Made by a program: the position numbers and the translations under genes. Below the pieces are notes generated by a model. That model was given only the letters and a program-made list of their open reading frames with translations. It was not told where the DNA came from and did not search any database. From Clostridia bacterium (GTDB lineage: Bacteria; Bacillota; Clostridia; Christensenellales; Aristaeellaceae), in the NCBI GenBank assembly GCA_017544935.1, contig JAFYDF010000126.1, forward strand, positions 1 through 64,000: 64,000 nt of DNA, given 5' to 3'. Position 1 is the stretch's first letter. Each line of letters starts with the position of its first letter. Positions 32,991 through 40,530 of this stretch are shown here, piece by piece.

Positions 32991-33941
32991 TTATGCTTTC
33001 CCGTATCGTACGGCCTTGCAGGCCTCGATCTCTTCGCTGTTGCCATACACCATATGCCCGTTGCCGATATCCACCAGTTTGGGCTGTTCCTCATCCGGGC
33101 CGTATTCCTTGGGCTGGTACACGAACAGTTTCTTTTTCTTTTCCAGGATCGGGTCGGGAATAGGAATAGCAGACATCAGTGAACGCGTATAGGGATGCAG
33201 CGGATACTGGAACAATTCCTCCGTTTCCGCGACCTCCATCACGCGGCCCTTATAGATAACCACGATGCGGTCACTGATAAAGCGCACGATCGACAGGTCA
33301 TGAGCGATAAACAGATACGTCAGTCCGCGCTCGCGCTGGAACTTCTTCAGCAGATTCAGCACCTGTGCGCGAATAGACACGTCGAGAGCGGAAATCGGTT
33401 CATCGGCAACGATCAGTTCGGGCTCCATGACGATGGAGCGTGCCAAGCCGACGCGCTGACGCTGTCCGCCGGAAAACTCGTGCGGATAGCGGGTCAGGTG
33501 TTCAGGCAGCAGACCGACTTCATTGATTGCCTGTTCTACCTTCTGCATACGCTCTTTTTCATCGCTGAACAAATGGAAATTGTACAGGCCTTCAGAAATG
33601 ATGTATTCAATAGTAGCGCGCTCATTCAGAGAAGCAGCCGGATCCTGGAAAACCATCTGGATCTTGCGGATTACTTCGCGGTCCTTTTTATGGGACAGCT
33701 TTCCACTGATCTTTTCGCCCTTGAAATAGATCGCACCGTTGCTGCACGGATTAATGCGGACGATAGCACGGCCGATGGTCGTTTTTCCCGATCCGCTTTC
33801 TCCTACAAGGGACAGTGTCTCGCCCTTATAGATATCAAAGCTGACATCGCTGACAGCCTTAAAGCTGTTTTTTCCCTGCTTGAAGACGACGTCCAGATTT
33901 TGTACGGAAAGCAGGACTTCCCGATTGGTATCATTTGCCAT
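32991..33941 (-). CDS. oppF: Oligopeptide ABC transporter ATPase OppF/AmiF type
   Basis: A 316-residue cytoplasmic ATPase. Walker [11 protein letters not shown]-loop [16 protein letters not shown], signature [15 protein letters not shown] and Walker [14 protein letters not shown] are all present. The C-terminal oligopeptide-transporter extension ([16 protein letters not shown]) follows, then a Lys-rich stretch. Length is normal for AmiF/OppF, unlike its partner OppD. AAGGAG precedes the ATG, 11 bases after oppD. It is the last gene of the oppABCDF operon. Confidence 0.95.
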
Positions 33942-33952
33942 ATCGATTCTCC

Positions 33953-35752
33953 TTACTCCTCAGCGTCCCCGTATATACGGACCATCTTTTCATGCAGGTT
34001 CTGAATGTTCTTGGGAGCTTCCGTTTTCGGTGCACGGGGATCAAGCAGCCATGTCTTAGCGTAATGCGTATCGCTTACCTTGAACATAGGCGGCTCTTCC
34101 TTCAGATCGATCGCCATGGCATATTTGTTGCGCGGTGCAAAAGCATCGCCTACGATCTTGTTATACAGCGAAGGCGGCGTACCCGGAATAGAGAACAGGT
34201 CGGTATCCTTTTCAGTCAGCTGCGGCAGGGAAGACAGAAGCGCCCATGTATAGGGGTGCTTAGGATCATAGAAGATATCCTCTACCGTACCCAGTTCGAC
34301 CACCTGTCCCGCATACAGCACAGCAACACGCTCAGCCACATTGGCAACAACGCCCAAGTCATGCGTGATATAGACAGTTGTGAATCCCAGTTCTTTCTGC
34401 AGGTCTTTAATCAGGCGGATGATCTGAGCCTGAATCGTCACGTCCAAAGCCGTTGTCGGCTCATCGCAGATCAGGATCTTAGGCTGGCAGGACAGCGCAA
34501 TCGCGATAACGATACGCTGGCGCATGCCGCCGGAATACTGGAAGGGATAGTCATCGAAGCGCTTCTCGGGTTCAGGAATTCCTACTTTGCCCATGATCTC
34601 GATCGTACGCTCACGTGCCTCTGCCTGACTGCATTTCTGATGCTTCAGGATAACCGTCATGATCTGTTTGCCGATCGTAATAACCGGGTTCAAACTCGTC
34701 ATAGGATCCTGGAATACAGTAGCAATGCGGCAACCGCGGATCTGCTGCCAGTCGTTTGTATACTTTACGTGCGCACAGTCAATGATTGCATAGCCGTTGA
34801 CAACGCCTTTTGCTTCATCAACAGAACGGTACTGCACGTAAAACACACATGTCTGGAAAATGCGGTTCAGCACGTTGATATCACGCAGGTCTTCTCCTAC
34901 CAGCATCGCTTCGCGGAAAGCTTTGAGCAGCGTGCGGATATAAGGAATCTGAGAGCGTACCGGATAGCGGCCGATGGAAAGAAGTACTTCATAGGCCAGA
35001 ATCTGATTGCGCTCCAGTTTTTCGTCTGAAAGGCCATACGGATTCTCAGCTTTCTCAACCTGCTGCATCTTCTTTTCACGAAGTGCACGGAGATTCGCCA
35101 GTTCCTGTTCATCCTTGCCGCGCTGGGCATCATCCTTAGAGTAAGACTCCTGGCGCTTCTTGATCAGCTCTTCCTTCTCCGCTGCAAGGGCTTTCTCCTT
35201 TGCGGTCAGCTCAACAATCTTCGCTTCTACCTTGGCAATTTCCTCAGCGTCCTTCTGGCTGTGCTTGTCCAGTGTCAGCAGATAGTTATTGGTGTCAACG
35301 ATATCATCATGCACAGCCTTCATACGTACGGCAAAGTTTTCCTCTTCCTCAACAGAAAGGGACTTTTCGTGCTTGATCACATTTTCCTTAGCCAGAATCT
35401 GCTTGTATTCCTCAGCACCGCGTTCAGCAACAGAATACTTATTAAGCTGGTTCTTCAGGTACTTCAACAGTCTGCGGTTGTAGGCTGTCAGCTGTACCTT
35501 AGTCTCGGACAGCTCGTCATCTGCATAGATGATGCTGCCCTCGGGAATAAAGCCATTGCCATCCAGCATACCGGCAAATGTCTTGGTCAGTACTGATTTA
35601 CCGGAACCGCTCTCGCCTACGATTGCAATGGACTCGTTTTCATAGATGTCCAGAGATACATTGCGAATTGCCGTCAGGATACGACCGCGCACATTGAACT
35701 TTACGCTGACATTCCGCAGTGAAAGGAGGACCTTCTTGTCATTCTCAGCCAT
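33953..35752 (-). CDS. oppD: Oligopeptide ABC transporter ATPase OppD type with large coiled-coil insertion
   Basis: A 599-residue ATPase; OppD proteins are usually about 330-360. Walker [10 protein letters not shown] is at about 45-53, but the Q-loop [12 protein letters not shown] is near 345 instead of about 100. The extra stretch of about 250 residues (roughly 85-335) contains a Lys/Glu-rich coiled coil ([20 protein letters not shown]) and a second part with [14 protein letters not shown]. After it the protein resumes normally: signature [15 protein letters not shown], Walker [14 protein letters not shown], and a C-terminal [14 protein letters not shown]. The reading frame is intact with AAGGAGGAAG before the ATG, so it is not a frameshift. 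The insertion must loop out of the helical/ATPase core. Confidence 0.93.
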
Positions 35753-35763
35753 GGTCTTCCTCC

Positions 35764-36714
35764 TTACATATGCGTCCTGGGGTCAGAGGCGTCTGCCAGG
35801 TTCTGTCCCAGAACATAAAGAATGATGGTAATGGCAGCAGCAATGGCAACCGGTGGCCAGAATTCCCATGGATAGATTAGGAAGGATGCCTGCGCTTCCT
35901 GGATCATGCGTCCCAGTGAAGGCACTTCTGCACTCAGACCTACACCGATATATGACAGGAAAACTTCCATGCTGATGTAGCTGGGCAGTTCAGTTGCCAG
36001 CAGGGTTACGATAACGCTGGTAAGGAAAGGCAGAATGTTCTTGGAAATCATGCGCGGGATCGGAGTACCGAGGCAGCGGGAAGCTAAGCTATACTCACGG
36101 TCGCGGATGATCAGCACCTGCGTACGGAAGAAGTAGGCAATGCCCAGCCAGCCGGTAATAGTCAGCGCAAAGATGAAGCTCCAGAAACCTGCGCCAATGA
36201 TATATACCAATACGGAAATCACGAGGATGTATGGCACATTTGCGATGATATTGTAAATCACCAGCATCACGGCATCAAACTTTTTGGAGTAGCCCCATAC
36301 AGCACCCAGTATGATACCAATGGTCATATTGATGGCCGCACAGATGACCGCCAATACCAGCGATGTACGCGCTGAGGACATAATGCCGTAGAAGATGGAA
36401 TTGCCCATCTGCCCCGTACCGAAGATCCATTTGAAGGAGAAGCCTCCGAAATAATCCATCGCCTTCTGGGGGCTCAGGTTGAAGGTCTTTGCGTCCGTGA
36501 TATTCTCATACGGGCGGTAAGGAGCAAATGCGGGAATTACAAACGAACTGACAATCAGGATGATGAACAGGGTGATCAGTATGATATTGACCTTCTTACG
36601 GAAGAATACACGGAACACGCTGGCCCAGTAGGAATAGCGCGGAGCAGTGATCCTTTCAGCCTGAATGGTATTAATATCAATAAACTGGAAATCCTTGTTG
36701 CTGATATCACTCAT
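35764..36714 (-). CDS. oppC: Oligopeptide ABC transporter permease OppC/AmiD type
   Basis: A 316-residue permease with a soluble N-terminal segment, a first membrane helix (NIILITLFIILIVSSFVIP), an outside loop (about 65-110), and five further spans. The EAA loop reads SLASRCLGTPIPRMISKNILPF. GGAGG precedes the ATG, which overlaps the oppB stop by one base (TAATG), so the two are translationally coupled. It pairs with OppB to form the peptide channel. Confidence 0.95.
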   Translation of the reverse strand: MSDISNKDFQFIDINTIQAERITAPRYSYWASVFRVFFRKKVNIILITLFIILIVSSFVIPAFAPYRPYENITDAKTFNLSPQKAMDYFGGFSFKWIFGTGQMGNSIFYGIMSSARTSLVLAVICAAINMTIGIILGAVWGYSKKFDAVMLVIYNIIANVPYILVISVLVYIIGAGFWSFIFALTITGWLGIAYFFRTQVLIIRDREYSLASRCLGTPIPRMISKNILPFLTSVIVTLLATELPSYISMEVFLSYIGVGLSAEVPSLGRMIQEAQASFLIYPWEFWPPVAIAAAITIILYVLGQNLADASDPRTHM

Positions 36715-38297
36715 TATCGGCCACCTCCTTTGCTGGAAGACAGCGAGATACGCGGGTCATACTTGGCCAGCAGCAGGTCGCCCAGGATTACAGAAATGAT
36801 TGACAGAGAGGTATAGAATACCGTAACAGCTACGATGATGCCGTTATCATGACCATTGATAGCGGCTGTCAGCAGATTACCAACACCAGGCATCGCATAT
36901 ACGCGCTCAGTGATAATTGCACCGGTCAGGCAGCCCAGGATATTGGCCGGGATACCATGCACCAGATAGATCATGGCGTTCTTGGAAATATGCTTGCGGA
37001 AGATTTCGCCTTCGGAAAGGCCCTCAGCGCGGGCAAACTTCACATAGTCGCTGTTCATCTGGTCGATCATGTAGCGGCGCATCCATTTCATCAGGCCACC
37101 GACCTGAGGCAATGACAGAGAAATGATCGGCAGGAAATATGCAAGTACTTTCACCTGCGCATTCGCAAACTTATACGGCAGACCGAACAGGGATGTGCCG
37201 ATGGAAGCGAAGATAAAGATATATGCCAGCGCAGGCACGGCCATGATGAAGATAATATATCCGTTGCCGATCTTGTCAAGCAAACCGTCCTTATGACGTG
37301 CCATCATAATGCCGAGCGGAAGGCCGAGCATGTAGGCGATCAATGTTGCGATAATACCGGCAACAAAGCTGTTCTCAATCATGCTCAGACCGCCGATATG
37401 ATAGGAATAAGCTGTATACTGATCAGGATACTGCTCCATCTCCTTGGCATTGCGCGGATTTGGATTATACCGCAGCGTGTGGAAATTGATAGCAGTAGTA
37501 ACATACTGATCGGTACCGATCTGTGCCGGATACTGCGTCTGTTTTTTGATCTGGTCGCCTGTCGGTGTGCTGATGACCTGAGTAATTTCAGAACCTCTGT
37601 ACTTGGTAAAGGAAGTGCCAAGGTTGAGATGCATGAAATTCTGGTGAATAAACGGGAACCGCCCGTCAAAATACAAAAGATATTTATGCGTGGTGCCTGA
37701 ACCTACAACTGCAAACAAGCCGCTGTAGGGATCCTTTTCCACGCGAATATAACGATCGGTCAGGTTTTCATCCTTCACGTCGTTCGTTGTTTCGAATGTA
37801 ATCAGATGCGTGATGTAGTTCCAAAGACGGACGAAGGGGCTCAGCTCACGCACTGCCAGCAGATAGGCATTGCCGCCCTTCTTTACTTTGCCTGCGGTAG
37901 AACGTACCGGCTGCAGGTATGTCTTTTTATAGCCGTTTGCTTCATTCTGTGCGAGAAATTCCTGTACGGAGGCATTCTCCATGTATGTATTCTCGTCCTG
38001 AATAGCAGCAAGGTCTGCCTTAAAATTCTCATTCTTCGTATAATCGGCACCATACAGTGCCTCATACTTGGTTTTCAGGAAAGACGCATAGTCATTATAT
38101 TCCAGGTATCCGAATTTCTGATACTGGATATACTCATACGCCGTGCGGTCGTTTGCATTTTTCTTATTCCATACGTCATCCATCTGGAAGATCACACTGC
38201 GTTCTATCAGCGTATACACCAACAGCATGACGGTGGTAACGACCACCAGCAGCGAAAAGATCGAGAAAAGGATGCGTTTGAGCATGTATCTTTTCAT
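36714..38297 (-). CDS. oppB: Oligopeptide ABC transporter permease OppB/AmiC type with long extracytoplasmic domain
   Basis: A 527-residue permease; the usual OppB is about 310, while streptococcal AmiC is about 500. The first membrane helix (about 8-30) is followed by an extracytoplasmic region of about 270 residues (roughly 32-305) with a Tyr- and Asp-rich sequence. The remaining five spans begin near SFVAGIIATLIAYMLGLPLG. The EAA loop is FARAEGLSEGEIFRKHISKNA. The ribosome site before the ATG is weak, unlike the rest of the operon, which may keep permease levels low relative to OppA. Confidence 0.94.
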   Translation of the reverse strand: MKRYMLKRILFSIFSLLVVVTTVMLLVYTLIERSVIFQMDDVWNKKNANDRTAYEYIQYQKFGYLEYNDYASFLKTKYEALYGADYTKNENFKADLAAIQDENTYMENASVQEFLAQNEANGYKKTYLQPVRSTAGKVKKGGNAYLLAVRELSPFVRLWNYITHLITFETTNDVKDENLTDRYIRVEKDPYSGLFAVVGSGTTHKYLLYFDGRFPFIHQNFMHLNLGTSFTKYRGSEITQVISTPTGDQIKKQTQYPAQIGTDQYVTTAINFHTLRYNPNPRNAKEMEQYPDQYTAYSYHIGGLSMIENSFVAGIIATLIAYMLGLPLGIMMARHKDGLLDKIGNGYIIFIMAVPALAYIFIFASIGTSLFGLPYKFANAQVKVLAYFLPIISLSLPQVGGLMKWMRRYMIDQMNSDYVKFARAEGLSEGEIFRKHISKNAMIYLVHGIPANILGCLTGAIITERVYAMPGVGNLLTAAINGHDNGIIVAVTVFYTSLSIISVILGDLLLAKYDPRISLSSSKGGGR

Positions 38298-38379
38298 GAA
38301 AACACCAACTTCACATCATTTGCGGGGAGTTTTTTGTCCGTTTCCCCATTTTCGAACAGAAGGCGATAAGCGACAGCGA

Positions 38380-38406
38380 GGGAAGCGGCGGGTTTCGCCG
38401 CTTCCC
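38380..38406 (-). other. Intercistronic hairpin between oppA and oppB
   Basis: An 11-bp perfect stem, GGGAAGCGGCG / CGCCGCTTCCC, with a five-base loop and no T tract on the minus strand. It probably protects the 3' end of the oppA message or slows polymerase, so that oppA is made in excess over oppBCDF. Confidence 0.7.
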
Positions 38407-38451
38407 CATGCTGTCTGCAATGTTCTTACAGAACTATCGCGTGAAAGGACA

Positions 38452-40530
38452 TTAGATGCCCAGAACCTTCAGCATGTAGCCGCCGTAGGTCATGGTGCCC
38501 AGGTAGGTAACCGGGTCGCCGTAGTCCGGGCCCCAGCCGCTGCCGAAGAAGAAGTCCATGCCGCACTCGGCGCCGGTCAGCGCACGATAGCCAACAGCAT
38601 AGTAATCCTGGCTGGTGGTAGCCTCGATCAGGTTGACCTGCAGGTTCTCAACGCCCAGGTTGTCCTCCAGGCTCTTCTTAACAGCCTGGCAACGGGCGGT
38701 GATGGCAGCAGAAGGAGAATAGTACACGATATCCATGACGATAGGCCAGGTCACAGTGTCGCCCAGCTCTTCCTTGGCAGCAGCCAGGTAAGCCTGAGCA
38801 GCTTCTGCATCGAACCAGCCCTCAACGCCGTCAGCGACGTTGATCTTCTCGCCCAGCTCGTCCAGATAGTACTGAACCAGCTCGCCGTACATCGTGCCAG
38901 CCGCGAAGGTCTTGCCATTTTCATCGGTGAACTCATTGGCCAGCTTCACGAACTCGGGGTGGGTGTACATGTTGCGCAGGCTGTTGTACTTCAGATCTTC
39001 GCCAGCAGATACAGCATTGTAGGTGCTGCGGTCCAGACCATGGACGATCGCCTTACGGAAGTTGATGTTGTGCACAGCAGTGTTCCAGTCGATCTTCTGC
39101 TGTTCGGTCTTGGCGGAAGCAACAGCACCGCTCGCCAGAGCGAAGGTGCCGCGGTTCAGGTTCAGGCCGCCGAAGTAGGTGGTGCTGGTGGTGTCAACAA
39201 CGTAAGCATACTTATCGAAGTTGCCGTCTGCCTTAGCCAGATCCAGGACGCCGGTAGCGCTGCCCAGGCCAGCTGCCGCATACACGCCGCTCACGGCGTC
39301 AGCGTAGTACTGCTTGGGGTTCTCGCCCATGTCATAGATCCAGGTGATGCTGTTCAGCTTGACCTTATCGGGGTTGTAGTAGTTCTCGTTCTTCACGACG
39401 ACCATCTCAGAATCGGCAACCAGCTTGGTCAGCAGGAAGGGGCCGCAGTAAACCTGAGAAGAAACGTCAGTGTTCTTACCAAAGGTGTAGGTGTTGGTAT
39501 CGGCGAAAGCAGCCTGATATTCATCAATGCCATACACGCCGCCGTTAGCGGTGTAGAAGCTCTCGCAGATGGGCTGGAAGATGCTGTAGGTCAGCATGGT
39601 CATGAAGTAGGAGTAGGGGTTGGACAGGGTGATGACCAGGGTGTTCGCATCCGCGGCAACATAGCCGACGTCGTCGAAGGAACCACCGTGGTTCACGTAG
39701 TCGTTGGTGCCCTTAACCACTTCGTCGGGACCATCCTGCTCGCCGGTGACCAGGTACTCCAGACCAGCAGCGGTATCCAGCATGTGATGGAAGCCAGCCA
39801 CGAAGTCATAAGCGGTCACAGGAGCATACTCGGTACCTTCAGAGGTGTACCAGTTAGCGCCTTCACGGATCTTGAAGGTGTAGGTCAGGCCGTCTTCGCT
39901 GACTTCCCAGGACTCGGCCAGAGCGGGCTGCAGAGTACCCATGTTGTCGTACTCGACCAGGCCGTCTACGCACTGTACCAGGACTTCGGTATCAGACTGG
40001 GAAGAGGTGTTCAGCCAGTCCAGGGTTACCGGAGCGGTAGAGAAGGTGGTCTTATAATCGGGGTTGATGGTGTGGCCCTTAGCGGTCAGGATCGCAGCAG
40101 GATCATAGGCATCGCCGCCAGCAGCAGCGGTGTTCCACGCTTCGATCAGCTCGGCGCGCTCTTCCTTGGTCACGAACTCATCAGAAATCACAAGGCCGTA
40201 CCAGCGGTCATCGTCATTGCCCCACTTAGCAAAGGGGGTGGTGCGGTACGCGATGCGGCTGATCTGATAAGTACCACCCTGGGTGGTGAAAGGCACGAAA
40301 GCAGCTGTGTTCAGCAGCATAGCCTCAGCCTGAGCTTCGAGCACAAAGCGCTCGTCGTCAGTCGGGGCAGCCTTGGCCTTCGCCATCAGCTCATTGTACT
40401 CGCCGAATACTTCTTCATAGATTTCGTCGTCATCACCGCGCTCATACAGGGTCTCCGCAGAAGCGGCAACCGCGCCCAGCACCATGATCACGGCCAGAAG
40501 CATCGCAAGAAGCTTGGACAGGTTCTTCAT
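38452..40530 (-). CDS. oppA: Oligopeptide-binding protein OppA-like, apparently circularly permuted
   Basis: A 692-residue exported solute-binding protein (SBP_bac_5 type). The signal peptide ends near VAASAETLYE with no lipobox Cys, unusual for a Gram-positive OppA. Residues about 44-118 (GEYNELMAKAKAAPTDDERF, VLEAQAEAMLLNTAAFVPFT) look like the segment normally found at the C-terminal end of this family. The usual N-terminal start of the domain (KTTFSTAPVTLDWLNTSSQSD, then LVEYDNMGTLQPALAESWEV) begins only at about residue 168. The protein ends at GSGWGPDYGDPVTYLGTMTY plus ten residues, where that segment would normally follow. GGAGGAATGAACC precedes the ATG. First gene of the opp operon. 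Confidence 0.88.
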   Translation of the reverse strand: MKNLSKLLAMLLAVIMVLGAVAASAETLYERGDDDEIYEEVFGEYNELMAKAKAAPTDDERFVLEAQAEAMLLNTAAFVPFTTQGGTYQISRIAYRTTPFAKWGNDDDRWYGLVISDEFVTKEERAELIEAWNTAAAGGDAYDPAAILTAKGHTINPDYKTTFSTAPVTLDWLNTSSQSDTEVLVQCVDGLVEYDNMGTLQPALAESWEVSEDGLTYTFKIREGANWYTSEGTEYAPVTAYDFVAGFHHMLDTAAGLEYLVTGEQDGPDEVVKGTNDYVNHGGSFDDVGYVAADANTLVITLSNPYSYFMTMLTYSIFQPICESFYTANGGVYGIDEYQAAFADTNTYTFGKNTDVSSQVYCGPFLLTKLVADSEMVVVKNENYYNPDKVKLNSITWIYDMGENPKQYYADAVSGVYAAAGLGSATGVLDLAKADGNFDKYAYVVDTTSTTYFGGLNLNRGTFALASGAVASAKTEQQKIDWNTAVHNINFRKAIVHGLDRSTYNAVSAGEDLKYNSLRNMYTHPEFVKLANEFTDENGKTFAAGTMYGELVQYYLDELGEKINVADGVEGWFDAEAAQAYLAAAKEELGDTVTWPIVMDIVYYSPSAAITARCQAVKKSLEDNLGVENLQVNLIEATTSQDYYAVGYRALTGAECGMDFFFGSGWGPDYGDPVTYLGTMTYGGYMLKVLGI

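Follow-up and report, generated by a model that had tools for sequence, protein, structure and literature searches.

The closest described relatives of the protein studied here are AmiA, AliB, AliC and AliD of Streptococcus pneumoniae (PDB 8a42, 8qlj, 8qlh and 8qlc), which gave its best matches in both sequence and fold (HMM E-values down to 2.5e-127; VIA Z-scores of 28 to 31). In AliD, lobe 1 is made of domain I (residues 29-63, 191-296 and 583-617) and domain II (64-190), lobe 2 corresponds to domain III (297-582), and lobe 1 has a helix (622-652) packed against it (PMC11192437). In AliB, the N-terminus of the peptide is held by W500 and D503 of a GWG-x-D motif (PMC11192437). Natural circular permutation has been described in TpMglB-2 (Tp0684) and its relatives, which are permuted ABC-importer binding proteins designated "Type Ic/Cluster Bc" (PMC4990184). 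The window, i.e. the whole stretch of 64,000 nucleotides analysed here, encodes a protein (P0001) which is, with a high degree of confidence, a natural circular permutant among the oligopeptide receptors of Ami/Opp-type ABC importers. Its open reading frame (38452-40530, minus strand, 692 aa) is exactly that delimited in an earlier note on this DNA, and its parts are as follows.

38452 to 40530, minus strand: circularly permuted AmiA-like protein P0001, probably oligopeptide-binding, 692 aa, ATG start
40456 to 40530, minus strand: signal peptide, residues 1-25, Cys-free and without lipobox (from the sequence and 28 permuted SBPs)
40123 to 40455, minus strand: transplanted former C-terminal segment, residues 26-136 (from HMM, BLASTP, AmiA/AliC match and DSSP)
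40069 to 40122, minus strand: new conserved linker from the old C-terminus to the old N-terminus, residues 137-154 (from alignment and pLDDT)
38455 to 40068, minus strand: canonical core, residues 155-692, from the old N-terminus to just beyond GWGPDYGDP (from Pfam and structural alignment)
38512 to 38541, minus strand: SGWGPDYGDP, residues 664-673, with W666 and D669 invariant in the permuted alignment

The order of the chain was clearly rotated in P0001. The earlier note had proposed a circular permutation, and this proposal is now supported by sequence profiles, by a structure model with an unpermuted control, and by the fact that 39 aligned proteins share the inherited order. Because whole-length profile-profile comparison by hhalign returns a single best collinear stretch (158-679), in which a permutation is invisible, one HMM was built for the tail and another for the core. 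The tail HMM, built on canonical C-terminal tails alone and leaving out the permuted sequences, had its sole match in P0001 at residues 44-136 (E 2.3e-14, normalised to 10^6 sequences). This comparison, which had been put forward as a check, demonstrated the homology of the N-terminal segment with canonical C-terminal tails, and the same HMM matched the N-terminal region in 39 of 39 permuted proteins. The canonical-core HMM matched residues 153-683 (E 2e-113). In line with this, residues 26-150 used as a BLASTP query matched canonical SBPs from the same bacterial family over their final ~110 residues (best E-value 1e-11), aligning for example to residues 521-631 of an unpermuted SBP of 635 residues; the match to L002, an unpermuted SBP encoded by the window's own genome, had an E-value of 5e-11. 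Rotation of P0001 increased its global alignment score by about 70 to 134 over the native order with all 20 canonical proteins (from 395 to 529 for L002), and for each of the 20 the rotated score exceeded the maximum of 30 shuffled-tail controls. When a profile of the permuted proteins was compared with the PDB, AmiA was matched in two stretches of swapped order, residues 158-678 on 14-498 and then 32-146 on 513-631. The second of these had an E-value of 1.7e-9 for AmiA and 1.6e-10 for AliC, which was split alike. The normal chain order, in which the last ~110 residues follow the GDP motif, is thus not that of P0001, whose tail occupies residues 44-136; with its tail at the N-terminus, the protein is therefore classed as a permuted SBP_bac_5 variant and not as an ordinary member. 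Some boundaries had to be moved. The N-terminal segment resembling a C-terminus is real but extends over residues ~44-136, rather than 44-118, and the canonical N-terminal lobe, previously placed from about residue 168, begins at about 153-158 according to the core HMM and the AmiA alignment. The expected tail is indeed absent from the end of the protein, but this end is not GWGPDYGDPVTYLGTM, which is followed by 12 further residues (TYGGYMLKVLGI) that are part of the core.

The phylogeny of the core fits a single origin of the permuted proteins from an unpermuted Ami-type ancestor. In the core tree, computed by a quick method, the permuted proteins constituted one group (SH-aLRT 98), adjoined by the canonical SBPs of Ami type, the remaining canonical SBPs falling outside; the permuted tails were also grouped (support 98/99) in a tree of their own. 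The mechanism suggested earlier, i.e. tandem duplication followed by trimming, is a plausible one, although intermediates were not encountered and transfer of the tail from a paralogue is compatible with the tail tree. A recombination event in which the tail of an AmiA-like gene was lost and that of another SBP was acquired at the N-terminus deserves consideration as a minority explanation, of rather low probability. It is in accordance with a core nearest to Ami-type SBPs and a tail for which BLASTP favours other SBPs (E-values of 1e-11 for L051 and 5e-11 for L002, versus 2e-5 for the Ami-type L044), and with the best tail tree, which joins the permuted tails to the "other" SBP group (support 77/46). 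However, a tail tree concordant with the core was worse by only 1.2 log-likelihood units (p-AU 0.43), being neither rejected nor favoured, the tail alignment is short (113 columns), and the tails of the Ami-type relatives have diverged. Both routes would moreover yield the identical rotated protein. As the tail tree does not decide between the same gene and a paralogue, duplication, fusion and trimming can be called likely, yet unproven. Two SBP-like open reading frames found in relatives of the same order, just downstream of their canonical Ami operons (L126:1815-4448, 878 aa; L129:1561-4023, 821 aa) were considered as tandem-fusion intermediates and rejected, both being, by eye, single SBPs of canonical order starting at a lipobox. 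They resemble large canonical SBPs in which the region preceding the usual core match is expanded.

From a structural point of view, the prediction recommended in the earlier note yielded a confident model, which aligned to AmiA without the C-terminal part of the latter. The AlphaFold2 model of P0001, computed with 30 homologues, had a pLDDT of 89.3 and a pTM of 0.84, and its N-terminal segment was well folded (pLDDT mostly above 89). Aligners of the VIA-align type are sequential and cannot align a rotated segment, so that an unpermuted relative, L043, was modelled as a control (pLDDT 79). The L043 model aligned over residues 27 to 649 with residues 33 to 643 of AmiA (Z 37.8), and the P0001 model over 155 to 692 with 33 to 532 (Z 29.7, rmsd 2.5, 492 residues); the part of AmiA left unaligned by P0001 is the part homologous to the P0001 N-terminus. 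The predicted model accordingly displays the two-lobed OppA/AmiA-type fold with an extra domain, and its best structural matches were cluster C peptide/nickel-type SBPs, with no cluster B protein among the matches listed. In the models, a set of helix, helix, strand, strand and helix ends L043 (541-648) and begins P0001 (34-136), and the order of the secondary-structure elements of one protein is a rotation of that of the other. DSSP assigned helices 34-53, 58-74 and 122-136 and strands 78-83 and 88-91 to the transplanted segment. Judging from pLDDT, pTM and homology, residues 34-150 would occupy the place that the missing C-terminus leaves vacant (AmiA ~533-650).

We propose that an ancestral AmiA-like chain was cut just after GWGPDYGDP, near residue 530 according to the AliC/AmiA alignment, which would place the cut in lobe 2 (domain III). 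The old last ~110 residues, comprising two lobe-2 helices, the strand pair of domain I and the C-terminal helix, would have been placed after the signal peptide. Helices 34-53 and 58-74 of P0001 would then be parts of lobe 2 and the strands from residue 78 onwards parts of domain I, and helix 122-136 may represent the start of the old C-terminal helix. The linker of ~18 residues (137-154) would tie this helix to the old N-terminal strand in lobe 1. It has no counterpart in the canonical proteins compared, its residues G138, Y142 and G152 are invariant in the permuted alignment, and the AlphaFold2 model shows it with a pLDDT of 94-97 and a short helix (144-150). The chain should still pass twice between the lobes, and the clam-shell hinge would accordingly be preserved. 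With the chain cut in lobe 2 and its former ends tied together in lobe 1, the N-terminus, which is the membrane anchor end in the lipoprotein homologues, would exit from lobe 2 and no longer from lobe 1; this moved tether, like the fold, is deduced from models and homology. That the N-terminal segment might instead act in trans, completing a neighbouring chain within domain-swapped oligomers, seems very improbable. AliC was crystallised as a domain-swapped dimer (PMC11192437), but it exchanges whole lobes and not this segment, its swap has no known functional role, the P0001 monomer was confidently predicted as one unit, and a conserved and structured linker joins the old ends.

The rotated order was widely inherited, by many Clostridia of the gut. 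Full-length permuted homologues were widespread in the window's family, falling into groups of 61-95% and 39-43% identity, and were also found in two further families of the same order and two more of the class, five families in total. The named matches were "Clostridia bacterium" and similar metagenome-assembled genomes, two of which are labelled as coming from the rumen or abomasum of ruminants, and no full-length permuted homologue was found in plasmid records. An assembly or annotation artefact fusing parts of two SBP genes might be suspected in a 169-contig draft genome such as that of the window, but it is excluded for practical purposes by the presence of the same order, at 38-95% identity, in dozens of genomes assembled separately from one another, among them two of one contig (G163 and G185) and one of two contigs (G091). 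No more credible is the notion that the N-terminal ~150 residues form an unrelated extra domain beside a complete C-terminal lobe: Pfam reports SBP_bac_5 (PF00496) alone, in normal order, over residues 200-683 and nearly the whole profile (2-363 of 368; 150 bits versus a cut-off of 32.4), but this "Middle" profile stops short of the final ~110 residues of these proteins, to which the N-terminal segment is homologous and which are absent where P0001 terminates (...GWGPDYGDPVTYLGTMTYGGYMLKVLGI). The outcome is thus the opposite of the one which the earlier note had named as fatal to its claim, i.e. 165 unrelated N-terminal residues and a complete C-terminal lobe.

The permuted SBP gene heads an Ami/Opp-type operon (32991-40530), which continues as follows.

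36714 to 38297, minus strand: AmiC/OppB-like permease, 527 aa, BPD_transp_1
35764 to 36714, minus strand: AmiD/OppC-like permease, 316 aa
33953 to 35752, minus strand: AmiE/OppD-like ATPase, 599 aa, with an insertion of ~245 aa at about 34778-35581
32991 to 33941, minus strand: AmiF/OppF-like ATPase, 316 aa

This Ami-type gene order was kept in 31 of 31 permuted loci, the window included (the L119 stretch stops before the last gene), and an AmiC/OppB-like permease lay directly downstream of the permuted SBPs that were checked. W666 and D669, which the motif GWGPD equates with W500 and D503 of AliB, were invariant in 30 permuted proteins. Such conservation of the Trp/Asp pair that holds the peptide N-terminus, together with the operon type, makes oligopeptide capture our best guess for the function, on sequence grounds. 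The most likely mode of action would be that of AmiA and AliB, oligopeptides being caught between the lobes and passed to the adjacently encoded permease. In the distant permuted group of 38-43% identity to P0001 (L107-L116, L120-L122, L090 and L094), the AmiF-like open frames were of 430-472 aa, versus ~316-335, with an extension at one end likely.

The insertion of the AmiE/OppD-like ATPase is situated between Walker A and the Q-loop. These motifs were separated by 287-384 residues in all 31 permuted operons, versus 55 in 8 canonical Ami-type ones, and since the permuted operons form one clade, this may reflect a single shared history. The insertion had no match in the PDB. The window's ATPase nevertheless matched NCBIfam NF043079, an OppD model of 561 positions which takes its name from the minimal-mycoplasma gene MMSYN1_0167, over its full length including the insertion, which weakens the idea that such an insertion is peculiar to permuted operons. 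The core of NF043077, the corresponding OppA model, begins near position 39 and is unpermuted at that end. In a phylum-wide sample, the window's genome and G586, both of which carry permuted SBPs, were the only ones with a full NF043079 match among the matches listed.

P0001 was also correctly described as devoid of a lipobox: its signal peptide contains no Cys, and its MKNLSKLLAMLLAVIMVLGAVAASA/E site resembles that of an ordinary signal peptidase I substrate. By the strict pattern, a lipobox was found in none of the 28 permuted SBPs of the window's family, P0001 included, but in 11 of 11 permuted homologues from other families. The latter result rules out lipobox loss as a companion of the permutation and makes it a lineage trait, independent of chain order. 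The canonical SBPs of the window's family that were examined had no strict lipobox either, some having a Cys acceptable to a looser pattern. P0001-type SBPs may possibly be freely secreted or retain an uncleaved signal peptide. The window's genome encodes lgt and lspA, and its SBP_bac_5 loci (L001-L008) lack a clear lipobox all the same. Extra LGT-like genes were also observed, four in this genome and up to seven in relatives.

It is tempting to consider the permutation as adaptive, the shift of the tether to lobe 2 altering docking and, with the ATPase insertion of ~230-330 aa, marking a separate Ami-type subclass; we hold this to be speculative and, on balance, doubtful. If true, permuted Ami-type importers would constitute a subclass with its own working geometry. 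Permutation is easy in the laboratory, and seldom caught in nature with clear similarity, unpermuted relatives encoded in operons of the same kind and solved structures. The matched permuted and unpermuted receptors of related importers make the effect of termini and tether on docking and transport directly testable. From a practical point of view, automatic annotation and profile searches will misread permuted SBPs, taking them for proteins that carry a strange extension at the N-terminus and lack their C-terminus.

Compared with known systems, P0001 has the closest unpermuted relatives of its core (~34% identity) in the canonical Ami-type SBPs L043-L047 and L074-L078, which have the same fold and an Ami-type operon, but the canonical order and an OppD-like ATPase without the large insertion. 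With the pneumococcal AmiA and Ali proteins, it has in common the GWGxD peptide motif, the C-terminal helix, the Ami-type operon and a long AmiC-like permease. It differs from them by its rotation (AmiA ~533-650 corresponding to P0001 ~34-150) and by termini predicted to lie in lobe 2, not in lobe 1, and from the lipoproteins AmiA and AliB by the absence of a lipobox anchor. In the full-text literature, a coverage which takes in a minority of subscription papers, no report of circular permutation in the OppA/AmiA class was found; permutation of ABC-importer binding proteins was already known in cluster B, and the peptide-class case is new in the papers searched. Like the P0001 family, the membrane-anchored TpMglB-2 is permuted naturally and its order is inherited across genera. 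By contrast, TpMglB-2 has the cluster B sugar fold, whereas P0001 has the predicted cluster C peptide fold; N-terminal strands moved to the C-terminus in the former, and C-terminal elements to the N-terminus in the latter. TpMglB-2 gained a fourth lobe crossing by permutation (PMC4990184), while P0001 would stay at two, and little sequence similarity is left in the permuted part of TpMglB-2, where the homology is unmistakable in P0001. The known natural permutation of importer binding proteins is thus extended from the sugar class to the peptide class.
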